64,000 bases of DNA from a virus. A model generated the notes under the pieces. It searched no databases and had not been told where the DNA came from. It saw only the letters and a program-made list of their open reading frames with translations. Each line of letters opens with the position of its first letter. Position 1 is the stretch's first letter. Positions 5,443 through 37,130 of this stretch are shown here, piece after piece. Made by a program: the position numbers and the translations under genes. The stretch spans positions 62,001-126,000 of the IMG/VR virus record IMGVR_UViG_3300025276_004419; one strand, written 5' to 3'.

Positions 5443-5645
5443 TGATATTTCGATTTGGAAAATATAAAGGTTATACATTAGCTGACGTTGAATTAAACGA
5501 TCCAAGCTATGTGAGGTGGGCACGAAATAATGCCCCCAACCTTATTCCAAAAAAAGCAACAAAAATAGTTGCCTCCGAAGAAGATGATGTGTATATTAAA
5601 GCTTATACAAATTTACCATTTATAGACCCAAGCGATGCTTTTTAG
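5442..5645 (+). CDS. small protein like the ExoX C-terminal domain
   Basis: This 67-residue protein opens with FRFGKYKGYTLADV followed by DPSYVRWA, the pattern of the short domain found at the C-terminus of exodeoxyribonuclease X and in many small phage proteins. No nuclease residues are present, so a nucleic-acid or protein binding role is more likely than catalysis. It overlaps the next gene by 11 bases. Confidence 0.65.
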   Translation: MIFRFGKYKGYTLADVELNDPSYVRWARNNAPNLIPKKATKIVASEEDDVYIKAYTNLPFIDPSDAF

Positions 5646-6168
5646 TTTTATTAAAGAATCAAATATACAACATAGCCGTGAAGTAGTTGAGCAGAATTTA
5701 GCGCGTTATCAGCCGTTAAATTACAATCGCTTCATGTGGTGGCGTAGTTATACGGATGGGATTAAGCCGTTGAGTAAACGCGTTACTCTCAAAGAAAGAA
5801 TTGTCAATGGTGATTTTAATGAGTCGTCATATTTTATGCAAGCCCAATTAGCTTTACATAATGCCAAAGATAAAGTAGACCTCACTAAACACAACCTTTC
5901 AGACCAGCTAGACATACTAGCTATGGATTTGACTCGATACAAACGTTTAATGGATGATTTTTATCGGGAGGACAATGAACGTTTAGAGGCATTATATGAT
6001 GCGTTTACCTCTACATTCAAAATGACTCGTAATGAGTTTATAAAAGAGATTTGTGATTGGCCTCTTGATTTATTATCTTATTACAAGTTCTGTATGGAGT
6101 TTAGATACGTAACACCAGCAGCTAATAGAAAAACAGCCCGAAGAGGTAGACCTAAAAAAACAAAATAA
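5635..6168 (+). CDS. hypothetical protein with basic AT-hook-like tail
   Basis: The 177-residue, mostly helical protein ends in a basic segment RRGRPKKTK that looks like an AT-hook, so DNA binding is plausible. No other motif is recognised. It overlaps the upstream ExoX-C-like gene and its stop is adjacent to the ATG of thyX, placing it in the nucleotide/DNA modification operon. Confidence 0.65.
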   Translation: MLFSFIKESNIQHSREVVEQNLARYQPLNYNRFMWWRSYTDGIKPLSKRVTLKERIVNGDFNESSYFMQAQLALHNAKDKVDLTKHNLSDQLDILAMDLTRYKRLMDDFYREDNERLEALYDAFTSTFKMTRNEFIKEICDWPLDLLSYYKFCMEFRYVTPAANRKTARRGRPKKTK

Positions 6169-6807: not shown

Positions 6808-6953
6808 TGGAACTATTAAAACATAGTTTAGGTTTATGTGGGGAACATTGGCACCCAAATATTTTTACACTTTTATTAAGTGGACTTGGATTAGCACCTT
6901 CTTTTAATTATATTTATTATAAAGTAAAAAGTTATGATAAAAGTAAGTCATGA
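6804..6953 (+). CDS. 49-residue membrane peptide
   Basis: A short open frame starts at ATGATG overlapping the thyX stop and ends at TGA 6951-6953, inside the start of the DpdA-like gene. The product, MMELLKHSLGLCGEH followed by a hydrophobic stretch NIFTLLLSGLGLAP and a basic Tyr/Lys tail, looks like a single-span membrane peptide. The tight overlaps on both sides support translation. Function unknown. Confidence 0.55.
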   Translation: MMELLKHSLGLCGEHWHPNIFTLLLSGLGLAPSFNYIYYKVKSYDKSKS

Positions 6954-7725
6954 AACCCCTCGTTGTTTATTAGAAGATAGCATACAATTTAATGACTATC
7001 AATATGCCTTGGTTCATTTACTTGAAGACGACGAGGAATATAGAGAACATTTTTTAAATTATCGTCAAGATCCTAAAAGCTATATTATTTTAGACAATTC
7101 ACTTCATGAATTAGGCCATGCCTACAATGATGCTGGATTATTAAAATGGGTTAATGAATTACTACCTAACGAATTTATTATCCCAGATGTTTGGTGTGAT
7201 AGAGATGCTTCAGTAGTTAATGCTCGTAAATGGTCTTCAATCGAACTACCTGAAGGTGTAGAAAAAGTAGCAGTAGTCCAAGCAACTACAATCCATGAAG
7301 CCGCTACTTGCTATCAAACATATAAGGATTTAGGGTATAAAAAAATAGCATTTTCGTATGGTGCGAGTTATTACAATGATGTTATTCCTCATCCTAACAA
7401 GGACATTGGAAAAGCTTTAGGACGATTATCAGTAATTTCAGCTTTATATAAAACTAAAGTAATCTCACAAAATGATAGAATTCATTTATTAGGGTGTGCT
7501 GTCCCACAAGAGTTTGGGTGGTATAAAGGATTCGATTGTATTGAATCAATTGACACATCAAACCCCGTAATGGCTGCTTTAGAGGGTATTAGATATACTA
7601 CTGCTGGTTTAGATGAAAAACCTAGAGCTAACATGAATGATTATTATTACATGCTTGAAGAAGAAATAAATTGGGACTTACTAACAGATAACTTAACTAA
7701 ATTTAGATACATAAACGACTTGTAA
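6934..7725 (+). CDS. dpdA: TGT-like DNA 7-deazaguanine transglycosylase (DpdA-like)
   Basis: The 263-residue protein resembles the tRNA-guanine transglycosylase fold in its compact phage DpdA form. Visible landmarks are YIILDNSLHELG (residues 50-61), where Asp54 matches the general base/nucleobase-binding Asp of TGT; a strand FIIPDVW (81-87); HLLGCAVPQEF (184-194), matching the family's hLGvG segment; and SIDTSNP (206-211 region), where Asp207 matches the nucleophile. It lacks the TGT zinc domain, as DpdA proteins can. With queC, queD, queE and folE nearby, it most likely swaps guanine in phage DNA for a 7-deazaguanine base. tRNA as substrate cannot be excluded. Confidence 0.75.
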   Translation: MIKVSHETPRCLLEDSIQFNDYQYALVHLLEDDEEYREHFLNYRQDPKSYIILDNSLHELGHAYNDAGLLKWVNELLPNEFIIPDVWCDRDASVVNARKWSSIELPEGVEKVAVVQATTIHEAATCYQTYKDLGYKKIAFSYGASYYNDVIPHPNKDIGKALGRLSVISALYKTKVISQNDRIHLLGCAVPQEFGWYKGFDCIESIDTSNPVMAALEGIRYTTAGLDEKPRANMNDYYYMLEEEINWDLLTDNLTKFRYINDL

Positions 7726-7726
7726 A

Positions 7727-8296
7727 ATGGCAAATTACTGTAGAACAGATATTATAATTAAAGCTTCTAAAAAAGCAATTGATAACTTTGTAGAACGTTT
7801 CGATAAGTGTCATGATGGTGCTTACCCAAATCAAGAAGAAAACCCTCACATTATAGATGAATTCGGTGCTAAAGCAGAATCACTAATCGATAAAGTTGGT
7901 TCAAAGTGGGTTAAAATGTGGGATGGAGGAATTAACTATCACGATGATACAGAAGGTAGCAGTGAAGTACGCCTTGCCTTAGACTCAGCTTGGTACCCAC
8001 CTTCAGATATGATTTTGGAGATGTTTAGACAAATGGAAGAAATTGACGGTGAGCATGAAGGTGTAAGAGTGTATGGTTCATATTGGGATGAAGGATACCA
8101 ACCTATTGGAGTATTCGAAGTTTACTATGGAGAAATAATTTCAAAAGAAAACCACGATTTGGATTGGTCTGAATGGGAAGAGAAGGTAGAGGAAGAAGGT
8201 GAATCCGAATACGATAGAAACTTCTGGGATGAAGAAGTAGACCCAGCATTCGTAGTTCTTCAAGAGGAGTTAGATAAAGTAATGGAAGAAATATAA
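7727..8296 (+). CDS. hypothetical protein, YubB/Api92-like
   Basis: The 189-residue very acidic protein begins MANYCRTDIIIKASKKAI and contains SAWYPPSDMI near the middle. A ferredoxin-like strand-helix start followed by a W-x-PP segment is reminiscent of the Api92/YubB family found in phages and plasmids, whose role is unknown. The C-terminal third is rich in Glu and Trp. It follows the DpdA-like gene by one base, so it is co-transcribed with it. Confidence 0.55.
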   Translation: MANYCRTDIIIKASKKAIDNFVERFDKCHDGAYPNQEENPHIIDEFGAKAESLIDKVGSKWVKMWDGGINYHDDTEGSSEVRLALDSAWYPPSDMILEMFRQMEEIDGEHEGVRVYGSYWDEGYQPIGVFEVYYGEIISKENHDLDWSEWEEKVEEEGESEYDRNFWDEEVDPAFVVLQEELDKVMEEI

Positions 8297-8331
8297 TATG
8301 TATAACGATAATAATAATTAAAAACAGAGTC

Positions 8332-8511
8332 ATGCCAAAATTAACAAGAGTAAATTCAGATTTACGTTATTACTCAGTAGAAGTTACTGATGCACAAGTT
8401 GTTGAAGCCCAAAAAGGTGATAAACAATTCGAAGCTTTACTAAAACTAGTAGGGAGCGATATGAAATTAGTTAATTCCGAAAACGGAAGAATTGAATACA
8501 TTATCGAGTAA
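8332..8511 (+). CDS. 59-residue hypothetical protein
   Basis: A short open frame, MPKLTRVNSDLRYYSVE to GRIEYIIE, lies between the YubB-like gene and a strong terminator. It has a mixed beta/alpha pattern and balanced charge, and the upstream 35 bases are A/T rich as at other starts here. No family is recognised. Confidence 0.55.
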   Translation: MPKLTRVNSDLRYYSVEVTDAQVVEAQKGDKQFEALLKLVGSDMKLVNSENGRIEYIIE

Positions 8512-8537
8512 TAAAAACTACACATTAGATATTAAGA

Positions 8538-8570
8538 TTGGGGGCTCTAAGCCCCCAACTAATATTTTTA
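8538..8570 (+). terminator. intrinsic terminator
   Basis: TTGGGGGC (8538-8545), a five-base loop and GCCCCCAA (8551-8558) form a perfect eight-pair GC-rich stem, followed by ACTAATATTTTTA with a T-run. It ends the thyX/dpdA operon before the queC gene. Confidence 0.8.
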
Positions 8571-8575
8571 AATAT

Positions 8576-8607
8576 AGCGTAAGCCTATACGCTTAAAATA
8601 CCTGGCA
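8576..8607 (+). promoter_or_regulatory. leader hairpin before queC, possible pseudoknot
   Basis: AGCGTA (8576-8581) pairs with TACGCT (8588-8593) around the loop AGCCTA, and the loop GCC can pair with GGC in the A-rich tail CCTGGCAAAAATAA. A small hairpin with an A-rich tail that pairs back resembles the general plan of preQ1-I riboswitches, but the conserved preQ1 core bases are not matched. A regulatory role is speculative. Confidence 0.3.
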
Positions 8608-8627
8608 AAAATAAAAAGTTATATAAG

Positions 8628-9434
8628 ATGGCAAAACATTGCGTTGTTAGTCTAAGTGGAGGGATGGACTCCTCAACATTATTACTCCGTGCCTTAAAGG
8701 AGTATGATTCAGTTACAGCTATGAGTTTTGATTATGGCCAAAAACACGTAGTAGAGCTAGAAAGGGCACAATCACTAGTTGATTATCTAGCAGAAAATGG
8801 GCATAAAGTAAACTATAAACAAATTAAACTAGACGGTTTAGCAAGCCTATTAGATTCAGCGTTAGTTGAAGGTGGTGAAGAGGTTCCAGAAGGGCATTAT
8901 GCTGATGATAACATGAAAGCAACAGTTGTTCCTAACAGAAACAAAATATTTGCTTCAATAGTTCAAGCAGTTGCTTTATCTGTTGCTAATAAAACAGAAG
9001 AAACTTGTAATATCGCTTTAGGTATTCATGCTGGAGATCATAGTATTTATCCGGATTGTAGACAAGAATTTAGAGATGCTGATGATGCTGCTTTTAGAGA
9101 AGGTAATTGGGACGCAGAACGTGTAGGTTATTTTACACCTTATCTTCTTGGAGATAAATACGATATTCTTTTGGATGGCGTAGGGTTATGCAAGGACTTA
9201 GGTATCGCGTTTAACGACGTATATGCGCGTACTAACACGTCATATAAGCCGATATTTGATGAAACTACATTCGAATGGTATAGTGATTATAAATCAGCTA
9301 GTTCAGTAGAGCGTGTAGAAGCATTCCTAAAACTAGGAGTAGCAGACCCAGTTTCGTATGCTGATGAAACAGGACCTGTAACATGGGAGCATGTAGTAAA
9401 AGAAGTAACTAAAGTATTAGCAGATCATGAGTGA
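8628..9434 (+). CDS. queC: 7-cyano-7-deazaguanine synthase (QueC), variant C-terminus
   Basis: The 268-residue protein has the ATP pyrophosphatase loop SLSGGMDSSTLL (residues 8-19), the segment VVPNRN (100-105) and GIHAGDHSIYPDCR (132-145), all classic QueC signatures. QueC converts 7-carboxy-7-deazaguanine to preQ0 with ATP and ammonia. The C-terminal zinc site is unusual: where the family has TxxCY and CGxCxxC, this protein reads TNTSYKP (202-208) and WYSDYKSASS (217-226), so all four zinc cysteines are replaced. The gene follows a terminator and a leader hairpin and overlaps the thioredoxin gene downstream. Confidence 0.9.
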   Translation: MAKHCVVSLSGGMDSSTLLLRALKEYDSVTAMSFDYGQKHVVELERAQSLVDYLAENGHKVNYKQIKLDGLASLLDSALVEGGEEVPEGHYADDNMKATVVPNRNKIFASIVQAVALSVANKTEETCNIALGIHAGDHSIYPDCRQEFRDADDAAFREGNWDAERVGYFTPYLLGDKYDILLDGVGLCKDLGIAFNDVYARTNTSYKPIFDETTFEWYSDYKSASSVERVEAFLKLGVADPVSYADETGPVTWEHVVKEVTKVLADHE

Positions 9435-9744
9435 TAGAGAAATAATGGATTCTAAATTCATGAGTTTAAAAACAAAGAAAATGAAATATTTAAAATTCGA
9501 AGCAGATTGGTGTGGTGCATGTAAAATGTTAAAACCAGTCTTACGTAGAGTAGCAGAAGCAGGAGTCCCAATAGAAGTAATAAACGCTGAACATTCAGCT
9601 GAACTAGTAACACAATATAATGTTAAAAATCTACCAACAGTTATTTTAGTAGATAACTCAGGTAAAGAATTTTATCGTTTTACTGGAACTAAAGCTAAAA
9701 CCGAAGATTATTTAAACACTTATCAACAATTCACAAATGGGTAA
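9427..9744 (+). CDS. thioredoxin
   Basis: The 105-residue protein has the active site ADWCGACKM (Cys29 and Cys32 region), the cis-proline LPTVILVD and the usual beta-alpha order. It would donate electrons for ribonucleotide reductase or other phage enzymes in the cytoplasm; there is no signal peptide. The ATG at 9427 overlaps the queC stop; a second in-frame ATG at 9481 (MKYLKFEADW) would give a more standard N-terminus and may be the true start. It sits between queC and queD in the same operon. Confidence 0.85.
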   Translation: MSDREIMDSKFMSLKTKKMKYLKFEADWCGACKMLKPVLRRVAEAGVPIEVINAEHSAELVTQYNVKNLPTVILVDNSGKEFYRFTGTKAKTEDYLNTYQQFTNG

Positions 9745-10207
9745 ATTTCAATCAAGTAAAGTATTTGATGGTTTTTCAACTGTATTCCGTCAACACAATG
9801 CAAAAACAACTCACTGTAGCTTTTTACATGGTTATGGAATTTCATTCAAAATTTACTTTGAAGGTGAATTAGATGACAGAAATTGGGTTTGGGATTTTGG
9901 TGGTATGAAACGAGCTAAAACCCTAATTGATGGTATGCAACCTAAAGAATGGATGGATTATATGTTCGACCATACTTTAATAGTAGCCGAAGACGATCCT
10001 GCTCTACCTTCATTTAGAAAACTAGATTATGATGGGTTAGTCCAACTTAGAGTTATCCCAGCTACGGGTGCTGAAAAGTTTGCAGAATATATTTTTGGTA
10101 AAATTGATAATTTTGTTCATAGTGAAACTGATGGTAGAGTAAAAATCTCTAAAGTTAAATTTATGGAACATGGAAAAAATGCAGCATATTATGTCTCAAG
10201 TTATTAA
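9737..10207 (+). CDS. queD: 6-carboxytetrahydropterin synthase-like (QueD)
   Basis: The 156-residue protein belongs to the PTPS/QueD family: catalytic Cys27 in HCSFLHGYG, VWDFGGMKRA (51-60) in place of the DFxxLK segment, MFDHTLI (76-82) for LDHxxLN, and a late Glu in KFMEHG. It would turn dihydroneopterin triphosphate into 6-carboxytetrahydropterin. The zinc motif HGH is HGY here and the first family His position is also not His, so the metal site departs from the bacterial enzyme. It overlaps the thioredoxin gene upstream and queE downstream. Confidence 0.85.
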   Translation: MGKFQSSKVFDGFSTVFRQHNAKTTHCSFLHGYGISFKIYFEGELDDRNWVWDFGGMKRAKTLIDGMQPKEWMDYMFDHTLIVAEDDPALPSFRKLDYDGLVQLRVIPATGAEKFAEYIFGKIDNFVHSETDGRVKISKVKFMEHGKNAAYYVSSY

Positions 10208-11006
10208 TCCCAAATTATGGGACAAAACGGCCCCTTTAGGTCGTATTACAGATTATGATAAAATACTTCCTATTCTTGAAGTCTATAGATGTGTTCAATC
10301 TGAAGGATCTAGATTCGGTAGGCCTACAATTGCTGTTCGTACTACTGGTTGCACTCATCGTTGCTACTTTGGTGAAGGTGGTTGGTGCGATAGTTGGTAT
10401 ACTTCAGTACACCCTGAAAAAGGCACATTCACGTTTAATGATATTATTAAAATCTATGATGAGAACCCTCACGTCAAAGAAATGATGCTTACAGGTGGTT
10501 CTCCAACTATGCATCCAGCATTAGTAAACGAACTAACCCATTTTGCAAATGAAAGAGGTATCCTCATTACTATCGAGACTGAAGGAAGTCATTTCCTTGA
10601 AACCGATTACCCGATTGGTCTCCTTTCTATCTCACCTAAGTTTAGCAATAGCGTCCCTGTTGTTGGTGCCCTTACTCCCAATGGGTCAGTTACGGATGAA
10701 AAGATGGTTAAAACGCACAATCGTCTTCGCCTTAACTCTGAAGCCATTAGAAAGAGTATTAGTTATCATAATGACTATCACTATAAGCCTGTGTGGGATG
10801 GTACTGATGAAGGACTCGCTGAGATCGAAGCTTACAGACAAGAGCTCGATATCCCTAAAGACAAAACCTTTATCATGCCCGCAGGAGATACAAGAGAAAC
10901 ATTGATTAAAATGTACCCACTAGTATTTGATATGTGTGCTGAAAAAGGGTATAACATGACTGGGCGAGACCACATAATCGCTTTTGATACCCAAAGAGGC
11001 GTATAA
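10191..11006 (+). CDS. queE: 7-carboxy-7-deazaguanine synthase (QueE), radical SAM
   Basis: I start at the ATG at 10191 (MSQVINPKLW), 17 bases inside queD, because the QueE-like sequence begins there; an ATG at 10170 would add seven unlikely residues. The 271-residue protein has SEGSRFGRPTIAVRTTGC and a cluster motif Cys54-x3-Cys58-x7-Cys66 (GCTHRCYFGEGGWCDS), then LTGGSPTMHP for the SAM-binding GGE-like segment. QueE usually has CxxxCxxC, so seven residues rather than two separate the last cysteines. It makes 7-carboxy-7-deazaguanine from the QueD product. Confidence 0.88.
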   Translation: MSQVINPKLWDKTAPLGRITDYDKILPILEVYRCVQSEGSRFGRPTIAVRTTGCTHRCYFGEGGWCDSWYTSVHPEKGTFTFNDIIKIYDENPHVKEMMLTGGSPTMHPALVNELTHFANERGILITIETEGSHFLETDYPIGLLSISPKFSNSVPVVGALTPNGSVTDEKMVKTHNRLRLNSEAIRKSISYHNDYHYKPVWDGTDEGLAEIEAYRQELDIPKDKTFIMPAGDTRETLIKMYPLVFDMCAEKGYNMTGRDHIIAFDTQRGV

Positions 11007-11170
11007 TGGCTAAAAGACAACCTAAATTAACTACAATTTGTCAGGATTGCCTTAACAGCATTCCTGACAAAACCATTCTAAAATACTCTATACCAGAATC
11101 AAATGCTGGTCCTGCGTATACTATAATGTTATGTAAAAATTGCCTTGAAAAACGTGAAAAACGTATGTAA
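11006..11170 (+). CDS. 54-residue zinc-ribbon-like protein
   Basis: An open frame starts at ATG 11006, overlapping the queE stop (TAATG), and ends at TAA 11168-11170. The product has two CxxC pairs, ICQDCLNS and LCKNCLEK, about 30 residues apart, which together could bind one zinc ion. The rest is basic (MAKRQPKLTT start, EKREKRM end). Nucleic-acid or protein binding is likely; no family is recognised. Confidence 0.65.
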   Translation: MAKRQPKLTTICQDCLNSIPDKTILKYSIPESNAGPAYTIMLCKNCLEKREKRM

Positions 11171-11252
11171 ATTTTGTGGTAAAACCATACCACCACTCGC
11201 TCAAACTACAGTTATATGTTATGGGTGTTTAACTAAAAAAGATAAAAAATAA
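11154..11252 (+). CDS. 32-residue zinc-ribbon peptide with GTG start
   Basis: A GTG-initiated frame at 11154 overlaps the end of the previous small gene and its TAA (11250-11252) overlaps the ATG of the nuclease gene. The product has VCKFCGKT and ICYGCLTK, again two CxxC pairs, 15-16 residues apart. The overlap with genes at both ends and the intact metal motif support it, but there is no ATG, so confidence is moderate. Confidence 0.45.
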   Translation: MKNVCKFCGKTIPPLAQTTVICYGCLTKKDKK

Positions 11253-11602
11253 TGTATACTTACTACGCCACATTAGACAGAGTAGTTGATGGTGATACCA
11301 TTGATGCTATAATTGATTTAGGATTCGATACTTTTAAAAAAGTAAGAATTAGAATGATGGGAATGGATGCTTGGGAATCCAGAACTCGAGATAAAGAAGA
11401 AAAAGTTAAAGGTTTAGCAGCTAAAGCTCGTTTGATTGAAATATTGAAAAACAATGAAGATAAATTTATCATAGTATCTCATGGGGTGGGTAAATATGGC
11501 CGTTGTTTAGGTGAAATATATCTTGAAGAAAATAGTGATAGTGTCAATAATCAACTTATTTCTGAAGGTCATGCTAAAGAATATTACGGAGGAAAACGAT
11601 GA
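11252..11602 (+). CDS. thermonuclease (SNase)-like nuclease
   Basis: The 116-residue protein matches the staphylococcal nuclease fold: DRVVDGDTIDAII (residues 8-20) with metal-binding Asp, VRIRMMGMDAWESRTRD with the catalytic Arg and Glu, GKYGRCLGEIYL with the second Arg, and NNQLISEGHAKEY near the end. It has no signal peptide, unlike secreted nucleases, so it may act on host or phage DNA or RNA in the cell. The start overlaps the upstream zinc-ribbon stop and its stop overlaps the next gene. Confidence 0.85.
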   Translation: MYTYYATLDRVVDGDTIDAIIDLGFDTFKKVRIRMMGMDAWESRTRDKEEKVKGLAAKARLIEILKNNEDKFIIVSHGVGKYGRCLGEIYLEENSDSVNNQLISEGHAKEYYGGKR

Positions 11603-12027
11603 AAAATTTAATTTGGATATTTTTATTACTAAGCTTTAATTTAAAAGCTCAGGAATGTTCTCCATTTTATAAAATCCCCTCATACGAACTTTCCCCAAAC
11701 AAATCAGCATCTATTGGTTATGTAGCCTGTATCCATGCTCGAGGAGTTGTAGCAGAAGTAGGATATAAAAATATTTTTATAGGTATATTAGCTATGGGAG
11801 AGAACCATCAAAGTGATACTTATACTTTCTTACAGTATGAATATCAATTAAAAAAAATAAGCTTTTATATAGGTCCCGCTTACAGATTAAATAATTCCTC
11901 TACACTCCTTGTAGGGAGAACAGGTATCGATATAAAGTTATATAAAAGAATATGGATAACTGCTAGTATTTTACAAGTAAATCCTAAATTAAATTACCTA
12001 CACTCAGGGTTAAAATTAGTCTTATAA
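11599..12027 (+). CDS. secreted beta-rich protein, probably outer membrane
   Basis: This 142-residue protein has a signal peptide (MKNLIWIFLLLSFNL) with cleavage site KA|QE, again with Gln after the cut. The mature part is a series of amphipathic strands (for example ISFYIGPAYRL and IWITASILQVNP), ending in HSGLKLVL, consistent with a small outer-membrane barrel. It lies oddly between nuclease and phosphoribosyltransferase genes, overlapping both by a few bases. Function unknown. Confidence 0.6.
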   Translation: MKNLIWIFLLLSFNLKAQECSPFYKIPSYELSPNKSASIGYVACIHARGVVAEVGYKNIFIGILAMGENHQSDTYTFLQYEYQLKKISFYIGPAYRLNNSSTLLVGRTGIDIKLYKRIWITASILQVNPKLNYLHSGLKLVL

Positions 12028-12530
12028 TGAAAGAATTAATTACAGCAGACGAAATTCAATTTCAAACAAAAATTATTGGTAAACAAATAGCAGATGGCCA
12101 TAGAGGTGATAAAACACCTGTAGTAATGGTAGGTTTGTTAAATGGATGCTTTGCGTTTTACAGCGATTTAGTTCGTTCGATGCCACTTGACGTGGAATGT
12201 GATTTTATGCGCGTTAAATCGTATGTAAATCGCAAACAAGGCGATATACAAATCACTAAAGATTTAGAGACACGTATTAAAGGCAAGCATGTTTACATTG
12301 TAGACGATATCTATGATACTGGTAATACTATGAAAGCCGTAATAGAATACTTAGAAGTAAAACACCCAGCCTCTATCTCCATTGTAGCTTTAATTACAAG
12401 GGAAACTTCCCCTACACCAAAACAAGAACTTTATAAAGCCTTTACTATAGGTGATGAATGGTTAGTCGGTTACGGAATGGATGATGAAAAAGGTTATCAA
12501 AGAAACCTTGATTCAATTTGGGCTTTGTAA
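12027..12530 (+). CDS. hypoxanthine phosphoribosyltransferase-like
   Basis: The 167-residue protein has the type I phosphoribosyltransferase PRPP loop HVYIVDDIYDTGNT and the early MVGLLNGCFAFYSDLVRS flap region seen in hypoxanthine-guanine phosphoribosyltransferases, plus a late WLVGYGMDDEKGYQRN like the HGPRT C-terminus (LVGYGxDxxxxyRN). It would salvage hypoxanthine or guanine with PRPP. In this operon it could also balance purines drawn off for deazaguanine synthesis from GTP; that is inference. Length is usual. Confidence 0.85.
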   Translation: MKELITADEIQFQTKIIGKQIADGHRGDKTPVVMVGLLNGCFAFYSDLVRSMPLDVECDFMRVKSYVNRKQGDIQITKDLETRIKGKHVYIVDDIYDTGNTMKAVIEYLEVKHPASISIVALITRETSPTPKQELYKAFTIGDEWLVGYGMDDEKGYQRNLDSIWAL

Positions 12531-12550
12531 ATAGGTTTCGTATATTCAAT
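12519..12550 (+). promoter_or_regulatory. promoter P2 before folE
   Basis: TTG (12519-12521), 20 nt, then TATATT (12542-12547), with TTTCG before the box. It lies at the end of the phosphoribosyltransferase gene and reads into folE through AATAAAGAGTTATAAATG. Confidence 0.7.
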
Positions 12551-12567
12551 CAAATAAAGAGTTATAA

Positions 12568-13263
12568 ATGGAAAATAAGCGTAGAAAAATCCACGAACAA
12601 TTAGAAGTGGTAAAAGAAGGTTTTGCTAATGGAGTAGCACCTGGTTTCCCCCTTAATGCGGATGAAAAACAAGAAATGATTGATAGAGCAACTATTGCCT
12701 ATGGTGATTTCCTTACAGCATTAAAATGTGATTGGAGAAATGATCCCAATTCAATGGAAACTCCTCGTAGAGTAGCTAAAGCATATGTAAATGATTTATG
12801 GGCAGGACGTTATACAGCAATGTCTCCAATTACATCATTCCCCTCAGATGGTTATGATGGTATAATCATTGAAAGAAATATCCCATTAACTTCAATGTGT
12901 TCACATCACCATCAAACAATAAATGGTGTTGTTCATATTGGATATATAGCAGGTGAAGATGGTCAAGTAATAGGTTTATCTAAACTAAATAGAATAGTAG
13001 AATTATTTGGTCGTAGAGGTGCTATTCAAGAACAACTAACATCAGCTATCCATAATGCTGTAGGAAAAATTACTGAAGGGAACAGAGGAGTAATCGTTAC
13101 GATTGTTGGGACCCACAATTGTGTATCTTGTAGAGGTGTAAAGCACCAAGGAGCAGCAATGGTTACTACTAAAGCATCAGGTGTATTTAGAGAGAACAAC
13201 AATTTATCACGAAAAGAGTTTTTTGATAGTTTAAAAATTAATAACGGAGGACATAATATTTAA
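12568..13263 (+). CDS. folE: GTP cyclohydrolase I
   Basis: The 231-residue protein has the family signatures MCSHHHQTINGVVHIGY (zinc ligands Cys111 and His114), GLSKLNRIVELFGRR (137-150), IQEQLT, and GTHNCVSCRGVKHQGA with Cys185 as the third zinc ligand. It converts GTP to dihydroneopterin triphosphate, the substrate of QueD, and so is the first step of the 7-deazaguanine pathway. It has its own promoter (P2) directly upstream, which separates it from queC-queD-queE in control. The usual CEHH motif is CSHH here. Confidence 0.93.
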   Translation: MENKRRKIHEQLEVVKEGFANGVAPGFPLNADEKQEMIDRATIAYGDFLTALKCDWRNDPNSMETPRRVAKAYVNDLWAGRYTAMSPITSFPSDGYDGIIIERNIPLTSMCSHHHQTINGVVHIGYIAGEDGQVIGLSKLNRIVELFGRRGAIQEQLTSAIHNAVGKITEGNRGVIVTIVGTHNCVSCRGVKHQGAAMVTTKASGVFRENNNLSRKEFFDSLKINNGGHNI

Positions 13264-15224: not shown

Positions 15225-15425
15225 ATGAGTTATTGGACAGGAAAAGTCGTTATCAAAACAGAAGATGAACGCGGTAAAGTTAAAAAAACAACAGAACAAT
15301 TTCTAATTGATGCTGAATCAGCAACCGAAGCTGAGGTAAAGATTTATAAGGAATATGAGGGTTGGAATGGTGAGTTTGAAATTATGGGAGTTAATAAGTC
15401 TCGTATTATTAAAATCTTGGCATAA
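15225..15425 (+). CDS. small protein resembling DUF4494
   Basis: This 66-residue protein reads WTGKVVIKTEDE, then FLIDAESATEAEVKIYKE, then EFEIMGVNKSRIIKI. The order of a KV strand, an LxDAxSxTEAE segment and a closing strand resembles the DUF4494 family of Bacteroides phages and conjugative elements. Its function is unknown. It is the first gene behind P3 and its stop overlaps the next start. Confidence 0.6.
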   Translation: MSYWTGKVVIKTEDERGKVKKTTEQFLIDAESATEAEVKIYKEYEGWNGEFEIMGVNKSRIIKILA

Positions 15426-16042
15426 TGAGTAGTTTTAAAGAAGAAGTAGAACTAGAACTACTTAGTAGTTTAGGTTTACTAAGTTCCCTTAGAGACCGAG
15501 ACCAATTATCAATGGTCCCAGAACATGAATGGGCTGAAGTAGTATCACAACGTATAGCTGATAAGTTTAAGGGTAGGTACGTTCCTTTTGTAAGCGAAGT
15601 AGAAGAGTTTAACGCAACAATGGGAAAACCTAATAATTATGAGCCTATCATACCTGAAAACAAAGCTGAGTGGATGTTTGTTTACGACTTCATTCTCGAA
15701 GAGCTTGAGGAATATAAAGCTGCCTGTGAAGCAGGCGATATTGTTGAGGTTCTTGACGCTTTATGTGACATTGCCTATGTCTCGATTGGTAACGGAGCTA
15801 TGCTTCATGGTCTTAAGGATAAACTATGGGATGCTTATCAGGAAGTCCAAGCCTCAAATATGTCAAAGGCTTGTGTGGACGAAAAGGAGGCACAAGAAAC
15901 GGTTCAAAGACGTTCTAAAGAGCAGAATGAACCTTGTCACTACGAGAAGGTTGGAGACTATTATATTGTCTATAGAACACGTGATAGAAAAGTAATGAAA
16001 AATGTTAATTACTTCCGTCCTGATCTAAAACAATTCTTTTAA
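15425..16042 (+). CDS. MazG-like nucleotide pyrophosphohydrolase
   Basis: The 205-residue protein has an all-alpha NTP pyrophosphohydrolase core: FILEELEEYKAACEAGD followed by EVLDALCDIAYVSIG gives the ExxE and ExxD metal ligands, and EVQASNMSKA fits the substrate-binding tail of phage MazG-like enzymes. Such enzymes hydrolyse (d)NTPs or ppGpp-like nucleotides. The C-terminal 50 residues (YEKVGDYYIVYRTRDRK) are an added beta segment. It is encoded immediately before the DNA polymerase, overlapping its ATG. Confidence 0.78.
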   Translation: MSSFKEEVELELLSSLGLLSSLRDRDQLSMVPEHEWAEVVSQRIADKFKGRYVPFVSEVEEFNATMGKPNNYEPIIPENKAEWMFVYDFILEELEEYKAACEAGDIVEVLDALCDIAYVSIGNGAMLHGLKDKLWDAYQEVQASNMSKACVDEKEAQETVQRRSKEQNEPCHYEKVGDYYIVYRTRDRKVMKNVNYFRPDLKQFF

Positions 16043-17832
16043 TGTATAAAAAGTGTTATCAAGGTAAAAAATTAGACCATAATTTGTATGAAATGCATTT
16101 ATGGGAAGATGATGGTGAACATCAGGTAGTTGAATATAAGAATAAATCTTATGTTAACTGCATCCCTGCAGAGTCTACCCTTAAAGGTCTAAATGGTGAG
16201 TTTGTAAAACCTATTACAAATTGGCGTTTTTCTAAAAACCCAATGTATAAGGACAAAAATACACCTGGATTACACTTTCATGATATGCCTGCTTATCAAA
16301 AGTTTCTTATTGAAAAATACGGAATTAATGATGAACCTTCGACAGGGCACCGAGAAGTCTTTTTCGATATCGAAATTGAGATGGGAGGTGCCCTGACTGA
16401 AGAATATATAGAAGATGCTCCAAAACCTGTTACCTCTATTGCTTGGTATAACTTACCTACAGATGAATGGGCAATTATTATTTTAGATAAAAAAGGACAA
16501 CTCAATCGTACTAAAGCAAAAAACAAAGAGATAATCCCCGTCAAAACTGAGAAGGAATTACTCCAAACTTTTGTTAAACGATTTAAAGAACTAAACCCAG
16601 ATATTATAATTGGGTGGAATAGTGATTATTTTGATATCCCTTATCTATATTATAGAATTGAGAAAGTCTTAAATAAAAGAATAGCAAATTCACTATCACC
16701 TTTAGGAATTGTTAAAACCAAAAAATCAGCCAAATATAAAGACCAAGAAACAGGTGAAATAAAGGCTAGGTGGTATAAGCAAGATATGTTTGTAGACATT
16801 GTAGGTGTTGAGTCTTTAGATTATATGAGAGTTCATAAAAAGTTTAGCTTTAGAGACGAACCATCATATAAATTAGATGTTATTGGTGAAAAGTATACTG
16901 GATTAAATAAAATCGAGTATGAAGGTAATTTAGATAACTTATTTGAAGATGATATCCATAAGTTTATTCAATATAACTTCCGTGATGTTGAAATTCTCAA
17001 ATTATTAGATGAAAAGTTAGATTACTTAGCACTCATTAAAAACCTAGCACATAAAGGTAAGCACAATTATAGTGAGGTATATGCCAATACTAAAACACAA
17101 GATGGTGCTATTTCAGCTTATTTATTAAGTGAAGGAATTGCTCCACCTGCTCGTGATCCAAACCCAATTAATAAAAAGAACTATGCTGGTGGGTATTTAT
17201 TTTGCCCTACAGCAGGTATTTTTAACTATATGTTTGATGAGGATTTAACTTCACTATACCCTTCAATTATTATGTCTTTAAATATTGGTAAGGAAACCTT
17301 AGTAGGAAGAATTATTATACCTGATGAAAAGGTAATGGTTGAAAATAAAGAGATCTTCAATTGTAGATATGGTTTAAACGATCTAAAGAAGATGGATCAA
17401 GACCGCTCTGTATTAGTCCAAAATGCTAAACGTAGTAATACTAACATCAAAATCCCAGATTTAATTGATTTAATTGAAAGCGAAAATCTATCAGTATCAG
17501 CTAATGGAGTAATGTTTAGAACAGATTTTGATTCGGTTTTATCTACTATTCTAAACAAATGGTTTAATGAAAGGGTAGTATTTAAAAACCAAATGAAAAA
17601 AGCCTATAAAGAGGGTAATAAAGAATTAGGTGAATTAATGCACTTAAAGCAACACACAATGAAAATTTTGCTAAATAGCTTGTATGGTGCAACTGCTCTT
17701 GGTAGCTTCCGATATGGTAATGTAATTTTATCAGAAGCAATCACATTATCCGGGCAACGTATTATCCAAGAATCAGCATCATTTGCTAATAAACATATGA
17801 ACCAAGTAATGAGAGGAGAAATAGAATTATGA
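16042..17832 (+). CDS. 43A: DNA polymerase family B, N-terminal part (exonuclease, motifs A and B)
   Basis: The 596-residue protein is the front of a T4 gp43-like polymerase. The proofreading exonuclease shows VFFDIEIE (Asp109, Glu111), IIIGWNSDYFDIPYL and YNFRDVEIL. Polymerase motif A is DLTSLYPSII (near residue 400) and motif B is KILLNSLYGA (near residue 541). The protein then stops at TGA 17830-17832, before motif C. Motif C and the thumb are encoded separately at 18539. The two parts must assemble to work. The break lies between motifs B and C, so neither part is a full polymerase. Confidence 0.92.
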   Translation: MYKKCYQGKKLDHNLYEMHLWEDDGEHQVVEYKNKSYVNCIPAESTLKGLNGEFVKPITNWRFSKNPMYKDKNTPGLHFHDMPAYQKFLIEKYGINDEPSTGHREVFFDIEIEMGGALTEEYIEDAPKPVTSIAWYNLPTDEWAIIILDKKGQLNRTKAKNKEIIPVKTEKELLQTFVKRFKELNPDIIIGWNSDYFDIPYLYYRIEKVLNKRIANSLSPLGIVKTKKSAKYKDQETGEIKARWYKQDMFVDIVGVESLDYMRVHKKFSFRDEPSYKLDVIGEKYTGLNKIEYEGNLDNLFEDDIHKFIQYNFRDVEILKLLDEKLDYLALIKNLAHKGKHNYSEVYANTKTQDGAISAYLLSEGIAPPARDPNPINKKNYAGGYLFCPTAGIFNYMFDEDLTSLYPSIIMSLNIGKETLVGRIIIPDEKVMVENKEIFNCRYGLNDLKKMDQDRSVLVQNAKRSNTNIKIPDLIDLIESENLSVSANGVMFRTDFDSVLSTILNKWFNERVVFKNQMKKAYKEGNKELGELMHLKQHTMKILLNSLYGATALGSFRYGNVILSEAITLSGQRIIQESASFANKHMNQVMRGEIEL

Positions 17833-18284
17833 AAGAGGTAGAACACCAAACCTATAAAGACAACCGTGGGAGTTACACACCGTTTCCATTAAATATAATG
17901 GATACTAAATGGGACCAATGTTCTATAAGTACAAATGATGGTAGGTATACATTTAGAGGAATGCATTACCAAACCCACCCACCTCAGGAAAAATATGTTA
18001 AGGTAATACGTGGTTCTATTATTGACATTGGTTATGATTTATTTACTAATAAAACATTCAGCCAAGAAATACATGAAGGTAATGCTGCATACCTACATAA
18101 AGATTATGCTCATGGGTTTTTAACTCTAGAACCTGATACTATTGTAGTTTATTTAGTTAAAGGTGAATATTCACCTGAATCCGAACATTCTATTGTATGG
18201 CAATCTCTCCCTGAAGTAAAAACATTAATAGAAAATTATACTAATAACCCTATTATCTCTAAAAAAGATGCCAAAGGAAAATAA
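17829..18284 (+). CDS. RmlC-like cupin (dTDP-4-dehydrorhamnose 3,5-epimerase family)
   Basis: The 151-residue protein has the RmlC core: FRGMHYQTHPPQEKYVKVI (the RGxHYQ histidine and the following lysine), GSIIDIGYDL, and HKDYAHGFLTLEPDTIVVYL with the conserved AHGF and Tyr region. The family epimerises 4-keto-6-deoxy sugar nucleotides. At about 151 residues it is shorter than full RmlC (about 180). It is inserted between the two halves of the DNA polymerase, overlapping the first by four bases. It would fit with the sugar genes at 25-41 kb. Confidence 0.82.
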   Translation: MKEVEHQTYKDNRGSYTPFPLNIMDTKWDQCSISTNDGRYTFRGMHYQTHPPQEKYVKVIRGSIIDIGYDLFTNKTFSQEIHEGNAAYLHKDYAHGFLTLEPDTIVVYLVKGEYSPESEHSIVWQSLPEVKTLIENYTNNPIISKKDAKGK

Positions 18285-18293
18285 ATTAACATT

Positions 18294-18542
18294 ATGATTA
18301 CAAGACAAGCAATTAGAAAAGGAGTTATAGTCGAGTGTGAAGGTAAAATCCTAACCAAAGATGAAATAGTTAGTATGGGGGAAAATTGGAGTGAACATTC
18401 CGAAATGTTCTTTCGTAAAATGTTGAGACAAGGAGGTAAATTTACTCTTAAAGGATCATCATTCCGTATTTTCGCACCTGAACAATTAACTAATAGTAAA
18501 GGTGATGTAGAAGCACCATTGAAAGAAAGTGAAGAAGAATGA
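18294..18542 (+). CDS. small hypothetical protein inside the polymerase split
   Basis: The 82-residue protein starts MITRQAIRKGVIVECEGK and ends in an acidic tail KESEEE. It has a beta-rich middle (GGKFTLKGSSFRIF). It overlaps the ATG of the polymerase C-terminal gene by four bases. No homing-endonuclease motif (HNH, GIY-YIG, LAGLIDADG) is visible in it or in the RmlC-like gene. Function unknown. Confidence 0.6.
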   Translation: MITRQAIRKGVIVECEGKILTKDEIVSMGENWSEHSEMFFRKMLRQGGKFTLKGSSFRIFAPEQLTNSKGDVEAPLKESEEE

Positions 18543-19468
18543 ACCACTTAGAAAGTACACCTTGGTTTATATGTAATAAAGAAGATACAAACTACTGCGT
18601 TTATGTAGATACTGATTCTAATTATTACAATGCTGAACCTATGCTTAGGCATCTTTACCCTAACTTTGATGAAATGTCTGAAGAGGAAAGAGATGTGAAA
18701 CTTGAGGAAGTAGCTTTAAAATACCAAGATTTAATTACTAAATCCTATAACACATTAGCATTAGAGGCATTCAATATTAAAACACACAGATTTGATATGA
18801 AAACCGAGTGTATGATTCGTGCTGGGTATTTTAGAGCACCTCGACGTTATGCTCAATGGATCACTAAAAAAGAAGGAGTACCTACTGATGATTTAGATAT
18901 TAAAGGGTTAGAATTTATGAAATCTAATTACCCTAAAATATTTGGAAATTTCTTTAAAGGTATATTACAGAAAGTAATTAAAGGTGCCCCTCAAGATGAA
19001 ATAGATACTTTATTGAAGGATTTTAGAACCAAAATATTATCCCCAGATACTAACCTTACTATCTTAGGTAATCCCACTCGTGTAAAAACACTAGAAAAAT
19101 ATTTAGCTTCCCCACCACGCCCAGGAGAAATGTTTTCTTCTATTAATCAAGGTGCTCCTGCTCCTGTAAAGGCAGCTATTAAATATAATGATTTACTTAC
19201 ATTCTGGAAGTTAGATAAGCAGCATTCTAAAATTACTCAAGGTGATAAAATTAAGTGGATTTATCTAAAAGAAAATCCATATAAAATTGAAGCACTTGCG
19301 TTTTTAGATTTTGATATACCAGAAAAGATCACTATATTATTGGATAAGTATGCTGATAAGAATAGGGCATTTGAATCTATTTTAGAAAGCAAATTAATGG
19401 GATTTTATAATGATTTAGGTTGGGAATTAAATATGAACCCTTACCGAAATTTAATTTTTAATTTTTAA
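18539..19468 (+). CDS. 43B: DNA polymerase family B, C-terminal part (motif C and thumb)
   Basis: The 309-residue protein carries motif C as CVYVDTDSNYY (near residues 21-31), with the two catalytic aspartates, followed by a palm/thumb region and a hydrophobic C-terminus (MNPYRNLIFNF) of the kind that binds the sliding clamp. The start ATG overlaps the upstream small gene. Together with the product of 16042 it restores a complete T4-like polymerase. It is directly followed by the clamp gene, the usual neighbour order in T4-like phages. Confidence 0.9.
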   Translation: MNHLESTPWFICNKEDTNYCVYVDTDSNYYNAEPMLRHLYPNFDEMSEEERDVKLEEVALKYQDLITKSYNTLALEAFNIKTHRFDMKTECMIRAGYFRAPRRYAQWITKKEGVPTDDLDIKGLEFMKSNYPKIFGNFFKGILQKVIKGAPQDEIDTLLKDFRTKILSPDTNLTILGNPTRVKTLEKYLASPPRPGEMFSSINQGAPAPVKAAIKYNDLLTFWKLDKQHSKITQGDKIKWIYLKENPYKIEALAFLDFDIPEKITILLDKYADKNRAFESILESKLMGFYNDLGWELNMNPYRNLIFNF

Positions 19469-20299: not shown

Positions 20300-20716
20300 A
20301 TGAGTACATTAAACCCGTACGAACGTTCTCCGTTCGACATTCTATTTAGAAACTTCTTCAATACCGAAGATCAATTCGCTCCAGCGTTAAATTCTAAACA
20401 ACCCCACCCACTTAATATTTACTACAACGACGAAGGTTTACACTTCGAAGTCGCTTGTACTGGTCTTATTAAAGAAGACCTTAATATTAACGTAGAAGGT
20501 GATTTACTAAAAATCAGCTATCAAAAACCAGATGAAGAAACTGATTTTTCAGGTTATATTTATCATGGTCTATCCAAAAAGTCATTCGACTTAGGATATA
20601 AAATCTCTCCAAAGTTTAATTTGAATAAAATTAATGCTGAAATGGAAAATGGACTTTTAAAACTCTATATTCCAACATCAGATGAGGCTAAATCAAAATC
20701 AATTAAAATAAAATAA
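20300..20716 (+). CDS. small heat shock protein (Hsp20/alpha-crystallin)
   Basis: The 138-residue protein starts with NPYERSPFDILFRNFF, then has an alpha-crystallin domain: LHFEVACTGLIKEDLNINVEGDLLKI, a short loop, and the closing ENGLLKLYIPTSDEAKSKSIKI with the family's A/GxL motif as NGLLKLYIP. Hsp20 proteins hold unfolded proteins. T4-like cyanophages often carry one near the replication genes. Here it stands between the clamp and groES/groEL, making a phage chaperone group. Confidence 0.88.
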   Translation: MSTLNPYERSPFDILFRNFFNTEDQFAPALNSKQPHPLNIYYNDEGLHFEVACTGLIKEDLNINVEGDLLKISYQKPDEETDFSGYIYHGLSKKSFDLGYKISPKFNLNKINAEMENGLLKLYIPTSDEAKSKSIKIK

Positions 20717-20734
20717 AAGTTTTACCAAAAAAGC

Positions 20735-20767
20735 GTGTCCTAGCGCAATACCTTTCGTATATTCACG
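20735..20767 (+). promoter_or_regulatory. promoter P4 before the groES-groEL operon
   Basis: GTG (20735-20737), 20 nt, TATATT (20758-20763), then CACGGTATAATAATAAATAA, which matches the leader at 45396 almost base for base. It reads into the genes at 20790 onward, so it probably drives groES and groEL. Confidence 0.7.
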
Positions 20768-20789
20768 GTATAATAATAAATAAACAGTT

Positions 20790-21071
20790 ATGGCTAAGCC
20801 CAGCAAATCAAATTTACGTTTTATTAAGGATCCAATATTGACTCCTTATTACATCCAATTAGATGACCATTGTTACATTGCTCAGAAATCAACATATTCT
20901 GAAGCAGGGCATGAGTATCAAAATACCATTGGACATTACCAAAAACTTGGTACTTGTTTAGAAGCTATAGCACGCGATGGTGCTAAATCCCAAGGTTATG
21001 ATACTCTACGTGAATTCGTAGAACGTTTTGAAGCAAAATCACAAGAACTAATAAATATAATTAAATTATGA
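20790..21071 (+). CDS. hypothetical protein
   Basis: The 93-residue protein starts MAKPSKSNLRFIKDPIL, followed by a strand pair YYIQLDDHCYIAQKS and a C-terminal helix with LREFVERFEAKSQELINII. No family is recognised with confidence. It is the first gene behind P4 and overlaps groES by four bases. Confidence 0.6.
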   Translation: MAKPSKSNLRFIKDPILTPYYIQLDDHCYIAQKSTYSEAGHEYQNTIGHYQKLGTCLEAIARDGAKSQGYDTLREFVERFEAKSQELINIIKL

Positions 21072-21361
21072 TCGAAGCATTATATAATGCGGTTATCGTT
21101 AAACCGGTAGAAGTAGAAGAAACAAAGTATGGAAACATTGTAGTTCCAGATTTGGGAAATGAAACAAACAAAACAGGACAAGTAGTAGGAGTAGGCCCAG
21201 GTCATATGAATATGGGAACCTTTGTTCCAACTCAACTCCAAGTAAATGATATTGTAATATTACCTACAATGGGATTTACAAAATTCGAGTATGAGAGCGA
21301 AACATACTGGATTGGAAAAGAAAACGAAGTTTTAGCAAAAATAAATAAAAACGATGAGTAA
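21068..21361 (+). CDS. groES: co-chaperonin GroES, divergent
   Basis: The 97-residue protein has the GroES fold pattern: ALYNAVIVKPVEVEETKYGN (strand and start of the mobile loop), IVVPD, TGQVVGVGPGHM with the family's VvavGpG element, and LQVNDIVILPTMGFTKFEYE followed by a final strand EVLAKI. The loop and N-terminus differ from host-type GroES (PLHDRVxV is LYNAVIV). It caps the GroEL ring. It overlaps groEL by eight bases. Confidence 0.85.
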   Translation: MIEALYNAVIVKPVEVEETKYGNIVVPDLGNETNKTGQVVGVGPGHMNMGTFVPTQLQVNDIVILPTMGFTKFEYESETYWIGKENEVLAKINKNDE

Positions 21362-22973
21362 AATTATTGAATTCGGTCCAGAAGGACGTCAAAAATTGGT
21401 AAATGGGATTGATAAACTAGCAGATGCTGTTGTATCAACATTAGGTCCTAATGGTCGTAATGTAGTCATTTCAAATTCAGAAGGTTATCCCCAAAGCACT
21501 AAAGATGGTGTTACGGTTGCCAAATCTATTTCACTTAGTGATAATGTAGAAGAAACTGGTGTATCTTTAGTTAAACAAGCAGCTATTCAAACTGCTAACT
21601 TAGCAGGTGATGGTACTACAACTTCAACTCTATTAGCACGTGAGATGGTAAAAGCAGGTCTTTCCCATCTTAACAATGGTGCTAATGCTGTTGAAATTAA
21701 ACGTAGTATTGATACTGCTGTTAAACAAGTAACTTCCCTTCTTAGACTTAATGCTGAAGATATCACTTCAGAAGAGCAACTAGAACAAATTGCTACTATA
21801 TCAGCTAATAACGACCCAGAAGTAGGTAAGCTAATTGCTACTGCTATGAATTCAGTAGGACGTGAAGGTGTTGTTTACATTGAAGAGTCTAAATCAGGGG
21901 AAACTTATTTAGAAACAGTAGAAGGGTTACAATTTGATAGAGGTTTCAAATCACCTTATTTTGTAACTAATAATGCTAATATGTCAGCTGTATTAGACAA
22001 ACCTTACATACTGATTGCTGATAGTACTTTCACAAAAGTAAAAGAACTTCTTCCTGTATTGGAAGGTGTATCTGGAACTGGTCGCTCTCTTCTTATCATT
22101 GCTGAAGATATTGATAATGAAGCACTCGCAACACTTGTTGTAAACAAGATGCGTGGAACACTTGCTGTTTGTGCAGTTAAATCCCCAGAATTTGGAGATC
22201 GTCGCAAACTTATTTTAGATGATATTGCTACACTAACTGGTGGAGAAGTATTTAGCAAGGATAAAGGAATGAAACTTGATAAATTTTCTTGGGATTGGTT
22301 TGGTGAAGCTAGAACAATAACTGTAACAAAAGAAACAACTACAATTGTAGATGGAAAAGGAGGAACAGAACGAATTGAAGCACGTATTGAAGAATTACAA
22401 CAACAAATCGAACAAGCGGGATCGCCGTTCGAAACAGAAAAACTTCAAGAAAGGCTATCAAAGTTCATCGGAGGAGTGGGAATAATCCACGTTGGTGGTA
22501 ACACTGAAACCGAAATGAAAGAGAAAAAAGATCGTGTAGACGATGCTTTAAATGCTACGAAAGCAGCTATTGAAGAAGGTATTGTACCTGGAGGTGGTGC
22601 TGCTTTACTTTATGCCCGTGAAGGTATTGAGGATAGAACCACATTAGGATCACAAATTGTATATCATGCTTGTGGAAAACCATTTACTCAAATTCTCATT
22701 AATGCTGGTTATGAAGTAGTTAAAGCTGAAATGCTAGCTATGGATTTCAAAACCAGTGAAACGAATTGGGAAGGTTACAATCTTAAAACAGAAGAGACTG
22801 TAAATATGAAAGAAGCAGGCATTATCGACCCAGCTAAAGTAACTCGTACAGCACTAGAAAACGCAGCCTCAGTAGCAGGTACTATTCTATTAACTGAATG
22901 TGTTATAGTAGAAGATCCAGATAGTAAGGATGAAGTAGATCCTATGGCTGGAATGATGGGAGGAATGATGTAA
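21354..22973 (+). CDS. groEL: chaperonin GroEL
   Basis: The 539-residue protein is a full-length group I chaperonin: STLGPNGRNVVISNSEGYP, KDGVTVAKSI, the ATPase loop AGDGTTTSTLLAREMV, EGIVPGGGAALLYA, and the Gly/Met tail AGMMGGMM. It folds proteins in a double ring with ATP and GroES. Family length is about 540, so it appears intact and functional. Residues of the apical domain (about 190-370) depart more from host enzymes, as expected for phage versions with special substrates. It lies between clamp and clamp loader genes. Confidence 0.95.
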   Translation: MSKIIEFGPEGRQKLVNGIDKLADAVVSTLGPNGRNVVISNSEGYPQSTKDGVTVAKSISLSDNVEETGVSLVKQAAIQTANLAGDGTTTSTLLAREMVKAGLSHLNNGANAVEIKRSIDTAVKQVTSLLRLNAEDITSEEQLEQIATISANNDPEVGKLIATAMNSVGREGVVYIEESKSGETYLETVEGLQFDRGFKSPYFVTNNANMSAVLDKPYILIADSTFTKVKELLPVLEGVSGTGRSLLIIAEDIDNEALATLVVNKMRGTLAVCAVKSPEFGDRRKLILDDIATLTGGEVFSKDKGMKLDKFSWDWFGEARTITVTKETTTIVDGKGGTERIEARIEELQQQIEQAGSPFETEKLQERLSKFIGGVGIIHVGGNTETEMKEKKDRVDDALNATKAAIEEGIVPGGGAALLYAREGIEDRTTLGSQIVYHACGKPFTQILINAGYEVVKAEMLAMDFKTSETNWEGYNLKTEETVNMKEAGIIDPAKVTRTALENAASVAGTILLTECVIVEDPDSKDEVDPMAGMMGGMM

Positions 22974-26781: not shown

Positions 26782-27546
26782 ATGAAAGTAGCTATTTGCA
26801 TTAGTGGTCAACCTCGTAATTATGAAAAAGGTTATCTTGAACTAAAAAAATGGTTTTTAGATAAATATGATTGTGATGTATACCTTCATACTTGGAAAGA
26901 TAATTCTCCTATGGAGGCAGGTCATAAATTTGCCCAAGAAAGACAATATGAGTTTACTGATGCAGATTATGATAATATTATAGAATTATATAATCCTAAA
27001 ACATGGCATTTCCAATCTCCAATCCCATTTGATACTACCGATATTAAAGGAGAGCATTTAAATTATAAATTAAATAGTTTATTAAGTGCTTCATATTCTA
27101 TCCATGCATGTTATAATTTAGTTAGAAAATGGGGGGTTGAATATGACTTAATTATTAGAACTAGATTTGACCTAGAATTTACAGATTATATCTCCCCAGA
27201 ATGTTTATTTTTAAAAGACCTTAGTTTATTAGACCCTAATAAATTAAATGTATTTGAATATCCATTAACAAATGGTGGTCATCAAACCAGACACTCAGAG
27301 GTAGATGATTTATTTGCCGTAAGTTCACCTAAAATCGCGGGTATTTACGCTGATTACTTTACATATGCTATATCCTACATTTATATGGATGATGCGTATA
27401 AATCCTGGTTAAATACAGTAATTTCAGAAAATCCAGACCCAATTCACCCTGAAAGTGTATTGAAGTACCATTTAATTTCTAATGGGGTAGAAATAAATTA
27501 CATTAAAAGTTTAACAGAACATTTTACAGCTAATCTACTAAGATGA
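26782..27546 (+). CDS. glycosyltransferase-like protein
   Basis: The 254-residue protein starts MKVAICISGQPRNYEKGYLE, continues CDVYLHTWKDN, and has YDLIIRTRFDLEF near residue 120. The ISGQPR start and the IxxRxDL segment are shared by a family of glycosyltransferase-like proteins in phages, giant viruses and capsule loci. The substrate is not known. It follows the HAD-nucleotidyltransferase gene with no gap. Confidence 0.65.
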   Translation: MKVAICISGQPRNYEKGYLELKKWFLDKYDCDVYLHTWKDNSPMEAGHKFAQERQYEFTDADYDNIIELYNPKTWHFQSPIPFDTTDIKGEHLNYKLNSLLSASYSIHACYNLVRKWGVEYDLIIRTRFDLEFTDYISPECLFLKDLSLLDPNKLNVFEYPLTNGGHQTRHSEVDDLFAVSSPKIAGIYADYFTYAISYIYMDDAYKSWLNTVISENPDPIHPESVLKYHLISNGVEINYIKSLTEHFTANLLR

Positions 27547-30209: not shown

Positions 30210-30239
30210 TTACACCACAATAAATAAAATTTATATAAT

Positions 30240-32780: not shown

Positions 32781-32783
32781 TCT

Positions 32784-33731: not shown

Positions 33732-33767
33732 TGATATACGTATATCAAATATAAATTAAACAACGTT

Positions 33768-37128: not shown

Positions 37129-37130
37129 TT

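Follow-up and report, generated by a model that had tools for sequence, protein, structure and literature searches.

Modification of DNA with 7-deazaguanine derivatives is a known anti-restriction strategy of phages. In phage CAjan, a minimal set of FolE, QueD, QueE, QueC and DpdA gives 2'-deoxy-preQ0 (dPreQ0) together with restriction resistance, and removal of dpdA ends both the modification and the resistance; the same minimal set gives dPreQ0 in phage Rosebush (PMC6884629). In the Campylobacter phages CP220 and CPt10, 100% of the deoxyguanosine (dG) is replaced by dADG, the deoxynucleoside of 7-amido-7-deazaguanine (ADG) (PMC8306585); a survey of 2019 counted both phages as DpdA-less. The present analysis concerns a stretch of 64,000 nucleotides (hereafter the window), positions 62001-126000 of the 130,026-base IMG/VR virus record IMGVR_UViG_3300025276_004419, which carries at 6934-13263 the genes for FolE, QueD, QueE, QueC and a DpdA-like transglycosylase, all on the plus strand. 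A first-pass annotation had read this segment as a phage 7-deazaguanine DNA-modification locus, a reading that is well supported by the results given here: the anatomy of the locus is confirmed and, judged from the sequences, such a function is very probable. While the modification itself is of a known kind, the split of the DpdA-like enzymes into two clades, a QueC devoid of its zinc cysteines and a phosphoribosyltransferase (PRTase) gene within the operon are new points. The two-clade structure, the zinc-less QueC, the hypoxanthine-guanine PRTase (HPRT) and the link to CP220 were all absent from the first-pass annotation.

The closest isolate is Flavobacterium phage immuto, which the record resembles in gene order and structural proteins; the phage is therefore a relative, and its host is probably flavobacterial. 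The two share a PRTase and a MazG gene within the operon, a zinc-less QueC, a divPolA1 replication gene, and FolE, QueD, QueE, QueC and gp027 proteins that are 61-73% identical (QueC 73%, QueD 71%, QueE 70%, FolE 61%), whereas their DpdA-like proteins are only 36% identical and belong to sister clades. In immuto, DpdA is followed by a formyltransferase, a thymidylate kinase, QueF and PolA; the window is without this modification arm and uses PolB. CP220 and CPt10 resemble the window in having QueC, QueD and a protein (gp056) that is a full-length homologue of the window enzyme and has identical catalytic residues, and no QueF was noted in the two regions read; they differ in their scattered genes, a canonical QueC with four cysteines and a DpdA that is about 34-36% identical. 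The dPreQ0 loci of the CAjan and Rosebush type also combine FolE, QueD, QueE, QueC and DpdA without QueF or an amidotransferase, but BLAST finds no relationship between their DpdA and that of the window (profile E=3e-4), and their QueC is of the canonical zinc form.

The DpdA-like protein (6934-7725, 263 amino acids) was identified by its fold model, by alignment and by tblastn to immuto and CP220. It matches no Pfam family, including PF01702 of the tRNA-guanine transglycosylases (TGTs), and a sequence search of the PDB matched nothing; it does match the unnamed PHROG 19058 (3e-39). The annotated 'DNA guanine transglycosylase' of immuto is 36% identical to it over 99%, and CP220 gp056 is a full-length homologue (34% over 99%, E=2e-34; about 36% in the alignment), so that CP220, contrary to the count of the 2019 survey, encodes a homologue of this enzyme. 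The CP220-type enzyme is said to have been named DpdA3 by Cui et al. in 2023 and tied to complete replacement of dG. Homologues occur in immuto, the Campylobacter firehammerviruses, the Bacillus BSTP phages and Chryseobacterium phage MA9V-3, and que or folE genes lie near the homologue in each case in which its neighbourhood was read (immuto, CP220, BSTP12 and MA9V-3); Cellulophaga phage phiST has them too, close to a structural relative. Relatives are present on at least 589 viral contigs, and the gene order of the window was found again in more than 100 viral contigs, which excludes a chance origin of the locus. Homologues that are 44-53% identical were also seen on contigs binned into bacterial or archaeal metagenome-assembled genomes, probably mis-binned phage contigs.

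For the AlphaFold2 model of this protein (pLDDT 92.7, pTM 0.89), Foldseek listed 50 PDB matches, made up of TGTs and of DpdA, the enzyme that inserts preQ0 into DNA (7UI4; TMq 0.62, rmsd 5.4), with no unrelated TIM barrel among them. Asp54 and Asp207, already proposed as the catalytic aspartates in the first-pass annotation, are invariant in 25 DpdA-like sequences from five phage groups, together with Asp85 and with L26, L29, Y36, N55, R164, H184, L186, G187, P191 and F194. By TGT numbering, Asp54 is presumably the general acid/base, Asp207 the nucleophile and Asp85 the guanine-binding aspartate. A profile alignment of the family with the DpdA of CAjan, a Rosebush-type phage, Dp-1 and phi38:2 places D54 against D63 and D207 against D206.

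The four biosynthetic enzymes lie where the first-pass annotation had placed them, as judged by Pfam and PHROGs. QueC (8628-9434, 268 amino acids) matches Pfam QueC with E=4e-37 and PHROGs QueC-like at 7e-41; FolE, GTP cyclohydrolase I (12568-13263), matches GTP_cyclohydroI with E=1e-41 and PHROGs GTP cyclohydrolase at 8e-57, and retains its zinc ligands. QueD, 6-carboxytetrahydropterin synthase (9737-10207; Pfam PTPS E=1.5e-12, PHROGs QueD-like 4e-38), is of the 'FRQ..HC...HGY' type with the catalytic C27, D78 and H79 retained, and its sequence matched nothing in the PDB. The radical SAM enzyme QueE (10170-11006), the synthase of 7-carboxy-7-deazaguanine (CDG), falls just below the Pfam cut-off (E=1.7e-6) and matches PHROGs QueE-like at 8e-47; its true start is probably at 10191. 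In QueD, F17 and Y33 stand where two of the three zinc histidines would normally be, as in immuto, phi38:2 and the relatives displayed, and the cluster motif of QueE is CX3CX7C in place of CX3CX2C, a form seen in 92 of 104 relatives examined.

QueC departs from the canonical enzyme in its zinc site. The four zinc cysteines are replaced by S205, D220, S223 and S226, abolishing the C(x)8CxxCxxC motif that is intact in the QueC of E. coli, CP220, CAjan, a Rosebush-type phage, phi38:2, nt-1 and Dp-1. The available sections of a 2026 study of the QueC family (PMC13329287) state zinc as required, define the catalytic motifs and report no zinc-less QueC with intact motifs. Relative to the canonical enzymes described there (PF06508 Cluster 1), the window QueC keeps all four catalytic motifs (SGGxDS, YxQxHxxE, VPxRN and YPDC), the equivalent of Y189 (Y206), a lysine near the place of K165 and the fold; the tyrosine, in an alignment of 26 sequences, and the lysine are invariant, and the top fold matches of the AlphaFold2 model (pLDDT 86.8) are the QueC structures 2PG3 and 3BL5. 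The substitution is a property of the group, all four cysteines being absent from 88 of 90 distinct QueCs that adjoin a window-type DpdA while the other two retain three. SGGxDS, YxQxHxxE and VPxRN are each present in all 90 and YPDC in 87. Zinc-less enzymes that keep the other known catalytic residues form a large group, of phages, marine group II archaea, Pirellulaceae and Cysteiniphilum, and zinc may therefore be dispensable for the chemistry.

Marine group II archaea, Pirellulaceae and Cysteiniphilum commonly have related zinc-less QueCs (about 43-57% identical); 10 cellular QueCs were left unclassified by the first pass of the regular expression for the zinc region. In 11 such cellular genomes, PF06508 has one strong match, the zinc-less QueC, besides weak and partial ones, and each genome has a full TGT, which suggests that the zinc-less enzyme of these genomes makes preQ0. 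A changed product, with the zinc-less QueC acting as an ADG synthetase, was weighed and lowered because of these 11 genomes and because immuto-type phages share the zinc-less QueC yet carry QueF, which needs preQ0.

On this evidence there is a high likelihood that guanine in the phage's own DNA is exchanged for a 7-deazaguanine base that the phage itself makes. The first three enzymes, FolE, QueD and QueE, would convert GTP into CDG, which QueC would turn first into the amide ADG and then into preQ0. The glycosidic bond of a guanine in DNA would be cut by the 6934 enzyme, in which Asp207 would serve as nucleophile, Asp54 as acid/base and Asp85 as the residue that holds the purine; the same enzyme would then install preQ0 or ADG. 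Guanine would be the by-product of this exchange, and its salvage to GMP is therefore the preferred and probable role of the HPRT-like protein (12027-12530; Pfam 1e-23, with HGPRT as the best PDB matches at E=5e-28), an activity that would also pull the exchange reaction forward. In the window the PRTase gene follows QueE and precedes FolE; in most relatives a PRTase gene is near FolE, and its two types occur in about 0.69 and 0.18 of 39 distinct window-type loci that have sufficient flanking sequence. The modified DNA should withstand cutting at restriction sites that contain G.

The identity of the base was approached through the gene content of related loci. In the DpdA tree, the immuto-type and the window-type sequences form two monophyletic clades separated by one change (SH-aLRT 99). 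Among the immuto-type loci with enough flank, QueF and thymidylate kinase are present in 55 of 55 and formyltransferase in 52 of 55. Window-type loci carry QueC (60/60), QueD (60/60) and QueE (59/60), and neither QueF nor formyltransferase was found in any of 148. Both were also searched for and found absent from the whole 130-kb record, which extends the earlier remark that no QueF gene was visible, and the QueF search detected its target in three control phages. Among 18 larger window-type records, none has the formyltransferase and none has QueF above the cut-off; a single match below the cut-off lies at the position of the FolE of its record. As to archaeosine-type markers, PF14489 (QueF-L) is not in the record, Gat-QueC was not seen (only the QueC domain was above cut-off), and PF01702 is unmatched throughout, no ArcS-specific model having been used. 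The absence of QueF and formyltransferase from the record and from the window-type loci makes preQ0 or its amide ADG the most likely final base, rather than a preQ1 derivative. A preQ1 derivative such as formyl-preQ1, made with a QueF and a formyltransferase that are encoded in a stretch of the genome outside the record or supplied by the host, would agree with the presence of both genes in immuto and with a record shorter than the immuto genome, but set against the clean division of QueF between the clades it has the slimmest prospect of the alternatives considered. The first-pass annotation had named preQ0 or CDG as the base; preQ0 stands, CDG is unlikely because a QueC with its catalytic motifs retained consumes it, and ADG had been left out. 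It is possible, at somewhat less than even weight, that QueC or the transglycosylase goes no further than the amide, or selects it, so that ADG replaces G completely as in the firehammerviruses: the enzyme is homologous to gp056 of CP220, whose DNA has 100% dADG (PMC8306585), and both amidotransferase and QueF are absent from the record. The window-type DpdA is, however, only about 36% identical to that of CP220, QueC has retained its known catalytic motifs and has relatives among the QueCs of TGT-bearing genomes, which should need preQ0, and the immuto-type phages combine the same type of QueC with QueF. PreQ0 is placed slightly ahead of ADG.

Whether polymeric DNA is the substrate bears on two further explanations. 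The 6934 enzyme might exchange the base of dGTP or dGMP for incorporation by the phage polymerase, in line with the MazG-type pyrophosphohydrolase, the PRTase and the polymerase that adjoin the module; it has the fold of transglycosylases whose substrate is a polymer, not that of a nucleoside deoxyribosyltransferase, and this course is considered quite improbable. Crippen in 2019 reportedly did not see dADG phosphate in CP220-infected cells, which also speaks against it. The genes might instead raise queuosine in host tRNA during infection with the 6934 protein as a tRNA transglycosylase, since the first four enzymes are common to queuosine synthesis and the fold is TGT-like, but the protein is of 263 amino acids without a PF01702 match, its sequence lacks the CxCxxC zinc site, and its homologues occur in phages with experimentally modified DNA, leaving this explanation with even less probability than exchange at the nucleotide level. 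Base exchange in the phage DNA is preferred, with three points weighing against it in the form given here: the QueC has lost zinc ligands that are stated to be required in the available sections of PMC13329287, the 6934 protein resembles the classical DpdA only weakly in sequence (hhalign E=3e-4, probability 39%), and a gene missing from the record (130 kb against 160 kb in immuto) could lie outside it. The chances are about even for the joint proposal that QueC is a zinc-free preQ0 synthase, that the distinct DpdA clade which it feeds places preQ0 or ADG in the DNA, probably at all guanines or most of them, and that the sister clade, with QueF, formyltransferase and family-A polymerase, installs a preQ1 derivative.

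The two clades also differ in the polymerase that follows the locus, family A in 58 of 58 immuto-type loci with QueF and family B in 24 of 27 window-type loci without it. Swapping of polymerase families is known in this phage group, and the available text of the source makes no mention of a link with modification (PMC11348598). A repeated co-swapping of the polymerase and the modification cassette was tried as an explanation and rejected; DpdA is split cleanly between the lineages (one change), FolE is almost as clean (two changes), and the two lineages are also set apart by how closely their terminases match that of the window (73-75% versus 60-64% identity). The association may therefore be a single event and is not a proof of coupling. 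QueE alone mixes between the lineages, with 14 changes of which at least 6 are forced. In the window, the family-B polymerase (16042-19468) consists of two open reading frames (ORFs; 16042-17832 and 18539-19468) separated by a sugar-epimerase-like ORF and a small ORF, and the gene is split in 21 of 24 relatives.

The window-type loci would add an abundant and previously undescribed branch to a known anti-restriction strategy rather than a new principle, and form with the immuto type a pair of phage lineages in which the gene content predicts different guanine derivatives. Phages of the window type allow the zinc requirement of QueC to be tested directly and, if replacement is complete, would show in what way polymerases and the defences of the host deal with DNA without ordinary guanine. 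Their DNA may be under-sampled by enzyme-based library methods.

Several other genes accompany the locus; the three given first here are on the plus strand, like the HPRT-like gene and the polymerase. The Api92/DUF1281_C-like ferredoxin-fold protein at 7727-8296 is 73% identical to immuto gp027 and is probably outside the locus core, being present in only 19 of 148 relative loci. The thioredoxin with a WCGAC site (9427-9744) is conserved, occurring in 109 of 148, as is the MazG/PRA-PH-type nucleotide pyrophosphohydrolase downstream of FolE (15425-16042; PF01503 E=1.5e-8, 79% to immuto gp208). Upstream of DpdA, a protein of 177 amino acids with an AT-hook-like tail (RRGRPKKTK) at 5635-6168 is found in 74% of distinct window-type loci versus 7% of the immuto type.

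Farther along the window, genes of GroES and GroEL with a small heat-shock protein-like ORF lie at 20300-22973, as in immuto. The DUF1599/Nmad1 protein at 25012, cited earlier as added support for guanine modification, is a genuine match (E=8e-7, above cut-off) and carries little weight as support. A long immuto-like block at 25417-45381 includes glycosyltransferase, aminotransferase, acetyltransferase, nucleotidyltransferase and sugar-epimerase-like genes, and three 2-oxoglutarate-Fe(II) oxygenases at 47751, 48715 and 51655 (47751-52281) make further hydroxylation of DNA or protein possible.

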